Below are positions 14,333 to 27,576 of a stretch of 37,071 nt of DNA, in pieces. A program made the position numbers and the translations under genes. Source of the DNA: Mycoplasmataceae bacterium (lineage in GTDB: Bacteria; Bacillota_I; Bacilli_A; Mycoplasmatales; Mycoplasmoidaceae); the NCBI GenBank assembly GCA_031281465.1, contig JAITFH010000017.1, forward strand, positions 1 through 37,071, in the 5' to 3' direction. Positions within the stretch are counted from its first letter, which is position 1. Each line of letters begins with the position of its first letter. The notes under the pieces were generated by a model, which was not told where the DNA came from, did not search any database, and saw only the letters and a program-made list of their open reading frames with translations.

Positions 14333-14353
14333 TATATATATATATATATATAT
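14333..14353. repeat. (TA)10 microsatellite upstream of the SHOCT-protein gene
   Basis: An uninterrupted alternating TA run of 21 bases abuts a minus-strand TATAAT (14336-14331). It lies in the 179-base gap between the start of the SHOCT gene and the end of gyrB; I see no gene or terminator in the rest of that gap. Dinucleotide runs at this position can change length by slippage. Confidence 0.8.
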
Positions 14354-24991: not shown

Positions 24992-25706
24992 CAGCATTCG
25001 AAATATTTTCGTTTCCGCACACAACATTTCATATAAGCTTCTTATCTTCATCTAAATGTTCCACGGTAGCTTGAGGATTTGGTCTTTCAGGCGCACCTTC
25101 ATCTTCTATTTCTCTTTCACCTGTTATTTTATAAATTGATACTCAGATGCTTATTTGTTTGCCGTTACCATCAAAGCCATCTTTTACTCTTTGTTCTCAT
25201 AAAGTATCAGAAAACTTAACATTTTTTGTACCATAACTTAAAATATCATATATTGCGTAAGTTAATAACCCGTTCCTGTTAAAATCACCAGCTTCTTCGC
25301 TTCCGTGTCACAATCAATGACTAAAAGTTCCTGGTTCGTCCCAATTTCCATAAGTTCCAGTTGCTTTTCCATCTCCATTGTAGATATAAAATATGTCATT
25401 TTCTATATCTTGCGGAATTAAACTGTCCTTAAGAAAGTCGACATATGTGAAAACAGCTGTATAAGTAACATCCGATGTAGGGATCATTTGTTCTTTAGTT
25501 GGCGCTTTTTTTATATATGTCTCTCTTCTTAGTTTATCAAAGCCATTTTTGTGTTCAGGATTTGTATCAATCCATTCTGGGGCAGATATATCAAAATCTT
25601 CAGCTGTAGGTGGAAGCAATTCAATAGGTGCTGAACAACTGTTTAATGAAAAAGCTAGAAAAAAAGAACCAAACAAAACAGAACTAGTTAATATTTTTTT
25701 ATACAT
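24972..25706 (-). CDS. Predicted surface lipoprotein, unknown
   Basis: 244 residues; TGA codons in SHWLWHGS and further on read as Trp. The N-terminus MYKKILTSSVLFGSFFLAFSLNSC has a lysine start, a hydrophobic core and a lipobox ending at Cys24, so export and lipid anchoring are likely. The mature part has a predicted beta-rich domain with FDKLRRETYIKKAP, YTAVFTYVDFLKDSLIPQDIENDIFYIYNGDGKATG, then WVSIYKITGEREIED and a Gly/Asp-rich WEQRVKDGFDGNGKQ. I do not recognise a family. A TATAAT (25718-25713) lies 6 bases before the ATG. The last 20 bases overlap the end of dnaN on the opposite strand. Confidence 0.8.
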
Positions 25707-25834: not shown

Positions 25835-27564
25835 CTAATTATTATCGTAAATATAGTTTCAGTTAACATCACCGTTATTTTTGTTACCATTATCAATTGG
25901 GACGTTTCCTATTCTAATATTAGAACCAACTGTTAAATGGATATTAACACTTGGGTTTCATTCTGTTTGTCAACTATTAGCACTGGTTGTTTTACCATCA
26001 AATAAGTATTGTTTAAACATCAGTGGTTTTGAATATTCAAACCCAAAGAAAGTAATATCAGTTATCCAACGGCGATCGGTTTTTGAAGCACTATAATTTG
26101 GTGCTAAACCGAAATCGTTGTAATTATCGGATATTAAAAATCCTTCGCTATTATCATTCAACCCTCTGTTGCTTCATAAATCAGAATTATAGTTTTTCGG
26201 AGAAGAAAAAACTATTTTGGCAAAACCTGAATTTTCGCCTACAAAAGCTTTAAGGTTAGGAGAATATAAATTGTTTAACCAAAGAGTATTTTCTGCTTTA
26301 TAAGACTTTGTGTTGTTTGAATTTATTCTCAAGAATTTAAGCTTATCGGTATATCCAGCAACTCCTATTAACTGATCAACTTTATCATCAGTTTTATTGT
26401 AGTCTTGCTTTGCTCATGTGCTTCTTAGTACACCTGCTGGAACAACACCAGCCGAAGCATTAGGGGTATACACCAAACTGGCATTTGAATCATTCTGAGT
26501 ATTATATCCATCCGAAATATCTCTTCAACCGTCAGCATCTGCATTGGGTAAGGTGTATGTCGCTTTTCCTTGAACAATGTCATCAAAACTAAACTTAACC
26601 AATAAAGTATCACTATTACAAGCTAATGCTTTCACTACCACTGTCTTCTGTGAAAAATAACTTTCAGAAGTTTGAATAGTGATAGTTTTGGTAAAATTGC
26701 TATTAGGACTTGCGGTTTGTATACTAAAGGTATTGATTAATTCATCAGATAAACTAGGATTGTATTCTTTAATATTTGGTATAAGCTGATTGATGCTAGT
26801 AAATTCACCTTTTTTAGCTCCAATATTAATAGAACCTAAATCGGTAGTACGGAAAAGATTAGATAGACTTAACCCGCTTCTCATAAATGAAAAAGATAAA
26901 TTATTTTCGTAAAGATTGGATGATATTCGTTTGTCTACCACAACTCGGTAAACAAACTCGTTTACTCTAACCACTTTTTCCGTATCTGTTGGCTCAGGAA
27001 TTATTAATTGGTTAACAAAAAAACCAGCATTTTTTGCACCATTAATAAAATCATCTCTCGTAGGAATTGGTTGTTCTGTTGTTCCACCAGAAAACGGAAT
27101 TAAACAACCAATAACGTTTTCTGGAGATAACTGATTTTTTCCCACATTTTTCCATTCTACTGAAACTGTGTTATTAACATTGTAATGTACACTATCTAAT
27201 CTCGGACAAATGGAAAAAAATTTATCTGTTTCGTGGATAAATTTAACTTCAATTTCACTTCCGTGATAATTTGCTTGTTGCTCAGTTTTAACATACTGAG
27301 GAAGTAATCTTAAAACCGTTTGTTCATCAAGAACATCGGCTATAAAATTCTCACGGTAATTTGTTTGCTCGTTTTTATATGCATAAATAGTGTTATTTTC
27401 GTCATCGTCAAATCGTTTAAAATCAAAAACATCAGCTAAATCTATTTTAGTTATTACCGTAGAGTTTTGTTTGCTAGTTAAGATATATGTAAGAGAGAGA
27501 GAGAGGCACTAGCTAGCAAAGCTATACCAGAAAACAAAGAAAGAAATGTGATTTTTTTAGACAT
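25835..27564 (-). CDS. Secreted/surface protein gene, out of frame at a (CT)7 tract (probable phase-OFF allele)
   Basis: From the ATG at 27564 the frame reads MSKKITFLSLFSGIALLASASLSL and then hits TAA right after a (CT)7 run. The rest of the gene (about 550 codons, to the TAG at 25835-25837) is open in the frame that would be reached by losing one CT unit. The repaired product is 575 residues: signal peptide, then ...TSKQNSTVITKIDLADVFDFKRF..., a hydrophilic secreted protein rich in Asn/Ser/Thr and ending NVNWNYIYDNN. No lipobox or domain is recognised. TGA codons downstream read as Trp. The intact TATAAT (6 bases before the ATG) and undamaged downstream frame argue for switching, not decay. 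Sequencing error in the tract is the main alternative. It lies between a lipoprotein and two large membrane-protein paralogs. Confidence 0.75.
27492..27505 (-). repeat. (CT)7 dinucleotide tract within the signal-peptide codons
   Basis: The plus strand shows (AG)7. With seven units the reading frame terminates at TAA within a few codons. With six (or any number differing from six by a multiple of three) it joins the long downstream frame. Tracts of this kind are typical slippage switches in surface genes. Confidence 0.85.
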
Positions 27565-27570
27565 GTAGAC

Positions 27571-27576
27571 ATTATA
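27571..27576 (-). promoter_or_regulatory. -10 hexamer TATAAT for the phase-variable gene
   Basis: A perfect minus-strand TATAAT, 6 bases before the in-frame signal-peptide ATG (27564). Another ATG at 27572 overlaps the hexamer and leads to a short frame. Confidence 0.6.

Follow-up and report, generated by a model that had tools for sequence, protein, structure and literature searches.

A candidate phase-variable surface protein gene with a CT repeat in its signal-peptide codons, and its tract-bearing paralogs, in a Mycoplasmataceae bacterium

Organization of the tract-bearing locus

The window analysed here is a stretch of 37,071 nt that corresponds to contig C31 of a draft genome (1.25 Mb in 72 contigs, ca. 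92 % complete, 30 % G+C), and its long genes are open only under genetic code 4, in which TGA encodes Trp. On the minus strand (Table 1), an ATG is followed by about 20 signal-peptide codons, a (CT)7 tract and a TAA, the product of this out-of-frame (OFF) reading being MSKKITFLSLFSGIALLASASLSLLHIS (28 aa). This confirms the order of elements described in the initial annotation, which had specified no strand, with the TAA lying a few bases beyond the interval it had delimited (27485–27576); the TATAAT promoter it had reported as intact is likewise present. The distance from the A of the ATG to the first tract codon of the frame used by the downstream coding sequence (hereafter, the body) is 59 nt, and therefore the loss of one CT unit puts the gene back in frame (ON); the 550 or so open codons said to be reached in this way were found to be 551, and the arithmetic is correct.

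Table 1. Coordinates of the features of the tract-bearing gene in the window.
Feature	Position	Strand	Remarks
-10-like box TATAAT	27571..27576	-	First base 12 nt ahead of the A of the ATG
OFF reading frame	27481..27564	-	ATG (27564-27562), signal-peptide codons and tract; 28 codons in total
(CT)7 tract	27492..27505	-	14 nt, within the signal-peptide codons
TAA closing the OFF frame	27478..27480	-	
ON-frame body	25835..27505	-	Covered by P0001; 551 codons past the tract; stop TAG at 25837-25835

Given the spacing between the TATAAT box and the ATG, the leader of the gene is very short or absent. A very short leader was considered as a special mark of switched genes and discarded, because an untracted neighbour starting at 25706 has a similar spacing. 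Directly upstream of the tract-bearing gene (27624–33699) there are two adjacent genes whose uncharacterised products (988 and 995 aa) share 67 % identity and have a hydrophobic N-terminal segment; neither gene has a tract.

Coding capacity of the body and nature of its product

Neither the repeat nor the body is expected by chance: a first-order Markov model predicts 0.0045 occurrences of (CT)7 in 1.25 Mb, counting both strands, and the probability of 551 open codons, given the base composition, is ca. 1.7e-13. The codon usage of the body correlates with that of the other genes in the window with r = 0.86, versus 0.50 and 0.28 for the other two frames. The repeat is thus of the kind that distinguishes genes subject to translational phase variation mediated by simple sequence repeats (SSR), being in the coding region, with units whose length is not divisible by three, and exceeding by far the length expected by chance. 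The same is true of the body, intact in another frame and under selection (see below).

The product did not match any Pfam or NCBIfam profile, and a PDB search retrieved only weak matches to leucine-rich repeat (LRR) proteins (E values of 0.03–0.05). A scan of the genome contig collection with the protein as query gave no relative, and an AlphaFold model from the single sequence had a mean pLDDT of 31, with no usable structure. Inspection by eye found no lipobox Cys after the tract, and therefore we call the protein exported rather than a lipoprotein.

A family of genes with a repeat at one codon position

Tracts were located by pattern searches followed by inspection of the surrounding stretches. 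The genome contains 22 GA/CT tracts of at least 11 nt, 18 of which sit 50–66 nt after an ATG and belong to one family. In paralogs that were found with the window protein and lacked a CT tract, its place was taken by poly-C or (TG)n. A profile (A1) built from 17 members, to whose family the window body belongs, gave 36 matches in the genome, and the member list was completed by pattern searches for poly-C and GT/TG. In total, 31 members have a readable body and one tract each, situated 44–66 nt after the ATG: (CT)n in 18 (11–29 nt), poly-C in seven (8–11 nt) and (TG)n in six (16–30 nt). The account of a single locus was therefore an understatement, since the window gene is one of about 31 related tract-bearing genes spread over the genome.

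Nearly all members have a -10-like box 12–24 nt ahead of the ATG. By eye, 22 of the 31 have a Cys just after the tract (e.g., LSSC, LTSC or LTNC); visual inspection also underlies the assignment of an export signal and a surface location to the family proteins. LRR repeats, detected in a few paralogs by profile search, are the sole feature that could be assigned among the family bodies. One member, C16:4741, is tractless, its signal peptide being of the ordinary kind with a Cys at the end, and another, C39:18392, has a broken-looking body of 83 codons.

Distribution of ON and OFF states

Of the 31 members, 24 are OFF and seven ON (C11:50139, C17, C48, C53:13342, both C2 genes and C51); the ON and OFF genes seen side by side are paralogs within one assembly. 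The three phases are represented by 7, 9 and 15 tracts, a distribution not different from uniform (p = 0.19), and the ON fraction of the family does not differ from one third. Additionally, four modules that are 87–94 % identical bear tracts of 23, 23, 24 and 26 nt, so that lengths vary between similar flanks.

These data bear on two explanations that do not invoke switching. Repeats are error-prone in sequencing and assembly, and a mistake of one unit would suffice for a window gene that is really in frame to appear OFF. We find this highly improbable: a dinucleotide tract of 14 nt is well inside a read, it is unlikely that 24 of 31 tracts of three kinds are all wrong, and the tracts and their placement would be real even so. 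No more credible is that the repeat serves as a constitutive recoding site, at which slippage of the ribosome or the RNA polymerase allows partial expression of OFF alleles, even though steady recoding would also account for selection on OFF bodies. At a recoding site the phase should be fixed, whereas all three phases are occupied here, and we know of no recoding at CT or TG dinucleotides.

Selection on the bodies of OFF genes

Pairs of OFF genes gave dN/dS values of 0.24 (C7 pair), 0.32 (C33 pair), 0.20 (C53/C62), 0.31 (C16/C57), 0.32 (C29/C66) and 0.34 (the tandem C66 pair, one with CT and one with poly-C), and comparison of the window gene with its nearest paralog, C17, which is ON, gave 0.36; some dS values exceed 1 and those ratios are therefore rough. 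Because the ratios between OFF bodies lie at 0.20–0.34, the OFF genes are not dead, and the substitution patterns indicate that their bodies are under purifying selection.

It is accordingly very unlikely that the window gene is a plain frameshifted pseudogene, in which the CT tract slipped once and decay is now under way. Such an origin would agree with its being out of frame in the one assembly, and paralog C39:18392 does have a broken body; but the window gene combines its long stop-free body with normal codon usage and a dN/dS of 0.36, and decay would require that 24 of the 31 members had freshly died at the same codon position, where tract types have nevertheless been rebuilt.

Exchange of 5′ modules and turnover of tract types

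A tree of the post-tract bodies implies at least nine changes of tract type, counting the absence of a tract as a type, when the minimum possible is three. Well-supported sister pairs have unlike tracts, as occurs with C66:6462 (CT) and C66:8281 (poly-C), and with C70 (CT) and C7:209 (poly-C). Genes C29 and C33:7466 are 94 % identical over 150 nt from the promoter to the tract and their bodies are 30 % identical; the two C53 genes share 89 % identity over 91 nt in the same region and 19 % in their bodies. Genes C33:5453 and C66:6462 are 97 % identical across the signal-peptide codons, and similarity falls to background level by positions +25 to +125. Conversely, the tandem C66 genes have related bodies and dissimilar modules. 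Since stretches 89–94 % identical precede bodies that share 19–30 % of their residues, the switch module probably moves between bodies. Tract types could also turn over by local conversion of one repeat into another, a possible route alongside module exchange, because the same ATCCC precedes or opens several CT, TG and poly-C tracts.

These patterns could mean that the tracts are mainly recombination seams that serve to move promoter and signal-peptide modules between bodies, the loss of frame being a side effect. The near-identical modules on unrelated bodies, the related tandem bodies with unrelated modules and the drop of similarity to background soon past the tract all fit this idea. However, similarity extends ca. 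20 nt beyond the tract in C29/C33 and C33/C66, and therefore the seam and the repeat do not coincide exactly; moreover, a poly-C of 8–9 nt is a poor target for homology, and the idea gives no reason why the tracts should nearly always put the frame at risk. We thus regard it as unlikely, if less so than the other alternatives, and it can be compatible with a role of the tracts as contingency switches. A broader proposal, to which we give even chances, is that of a modular switch: a cassette of promoter, signal peptide and repeat, working with any of the three repeats (CT, TG or poly-C) at the single codon position, would move between unrelated bodies, about 31 surface proteins would switch independently, and new bodies would gain the switch by recombination near the tract.

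Proposed mechanism of switching

We conclude that the window gene is very probably a contingency gene, subject to phase variation at the level of translation, and that the assembly records it in an out-of-frame state. The encoded protein would be exported and probably placed at the surface. The proposal of a contingency locus in the OFF state is well supported by anatomy and sequence comparison: it agrees with the 31 paralogs, ON and OFF, whose repeats share one codon position, with the purifying selection acting on OFF bodies and with the variable tract lengths beside near-identical flanks. Further backing comes from the poly-C tracts of distant relatives in a second species (see below) and from the mismatch repair gene complement: MutS was not found in this genome and is present in 11 of 14 control genomes. 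Its absence is expected for mollicutes.

Slipped-strand mispairing during replication would add or remove CT units within the signal-peptide codons, assuming that slippage takes place in living cells. One of the three phases of the tract would join the start codon and the export signal to the body, and the other two would stop translation within a few codons. The ON product would presumably be secreted and displayed on the surface, where it might be of benefit against the host, phages or changes of niche, and around 31 such switches, probably independent, would coexist in one genome. Whatever the frame, the tracts are read as Leu-Ser for (CT)n, Val-Cys for (TG)n and Pro for poly-C, and therefore the signal peptide stays similar at all ON lengths, in agreement with the earlier suggestion that each ON allele alters this peptide slightly.

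If this is true, any clone of this wall-less bacterium, with no MutS detected, could display many ON/OFF combinations of surface proteins. That slippery tracts have been rebuilt time and again at one site, with three chemistries, would also constitute evidence for selection on mutability itself; this question has long been debated, and the present family allows it to be approached by counting.

Relatives in other genomes

The body family is almost confined to its own species: weak matches came from 4 of the 35 further genomes analysed for the genus, and none from 59 genomes belonging to other genera of the same taxonomic family. A second species (G011) contains four tandem distant relatives with tracts of C8 to C10 situated 104–127 nt after the ATG, one of them ON and three OFF. 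The nearest named relative by GyrB is Mycoplasmataceae bacterium Cf509_bin32, with 62 % identity.

CT tracts across the genus were considered as part of the same system and rejected, since most of those examined are intergenic and near hairpins. Two CT tracts of other genomes of the genus fall, by eye, within a probable DNA-methyltransferase gene. In contigs of a sister species (G007, L209–L220), CT tracts of 16–42 nt follow a conserved hairpin-like sequence (AAGCAAGAACTAGCAAATGCTAAATTCTTGCTTTT), several of them near contig ends; this combination of hairpin and CT tract is a repeated non-coding element.

Comparison with known phase-variable systems

In Helicobacter pylori, the outer membrane protein genes oipA and sabA have a CT tract near the 5′ end of the coding region, in the signal-peptide region in the case of oipA, whose number of units sets the ON or OFF state (PMC10564699, PMC2715451); 6, 7 and 8 CT units occur in sabA within one strain (PMC2715451). 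The tract described here is similar in length, position and frame-setting role, although the proteins and the phylum are unrelated and the present family is made up of 31 genes, in which three types of repeat share a single site and the 5′ modules are exchangeable. The type III mod gene of Mycoplasma mycoides subsp. capri is phase-variable through AG repeats and is a closer case in being from a mollicute and having an AG/CT tract in the coding region, with a stop just past the tract at the OFF length (PMC3498834). Unlike our family, it is a single DNA methyltransferase gene with the tract outside a signal peptide.

The TA repeats of the vmc and vmm genes sit in the promoter spacer and act on transcription, in contrast to the tracts in this work, which are in the coding region and set the frame. 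These genes of the M. mycoides cluster encode a family of surface lipoproteins with dinucleotide repeats and combinatorial expression (Wise et al., 2006, as cited in PMC3498834), and thus resemble ours as a mollicute surface-protein family with dinucleotide repeats. Related surface proteins of one species with differing repeat types are also found in Moraxella catarrhalis, where uspA1, uspA2 and uspA2H are switched by repeats of G, AGAT and A (PMC7302503); there, two or three genes carry the repeats at different places, upstream of or in the ORF, and here 31 genes carry them at one codon position. Our literature search, whose coverage excluded most subscription journals, yielded no description of a family in which one codon position is shared by three types of repeat. 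The switching mechanism is thus already known from oipA and sabA, and what is unusual is that the members of one family use three types of repeat at a single site and have exchangeable 5′ modules.

Other repeat tracts in the genome

Several other tracts were recorded. Three genes for large BspA-type leucine-rich repeat proteins (C57:39556, C60:4602 and C60:42507; L119, L113 and L114) carry poly-C tracts of 8–9 nt, 82–89 nt after the ATG and all out of frame, and are predicted to be a second switched set. At C68:1657, an ATG is followed at 53 nt by an out-of-frame TG tract of 51 nt, just ahead of a separate lipoprotein-like ORF. From C66:33374 to the contig end (L097), a poly-C switch module precedes a short sequence that contains GTGTTACTTTTGAGGGG-like repeats. 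Copies of this sequence open another contig (C3:1–156, L110) ahead of a family body without a module; possibly, both belong to one locus split by an inserted repeat. CT tracts also occur ahead of a family-2 glycosyltransferase (C21:8949, L034), 65 nt after an ATG and OFF, and ahead of a TMEM164-like membrane protein (C63:661, L024). Finally, a (TA)10.5 tract in the window (14333–14353; expected ca. 2e-5 times per genome) precedes by about 45 nt the ATG (14288, minus strand) of a gene for a SHOCT-domain protein; the tract overlaps a TATAAT-like box and is possibly a promoter-length switch.
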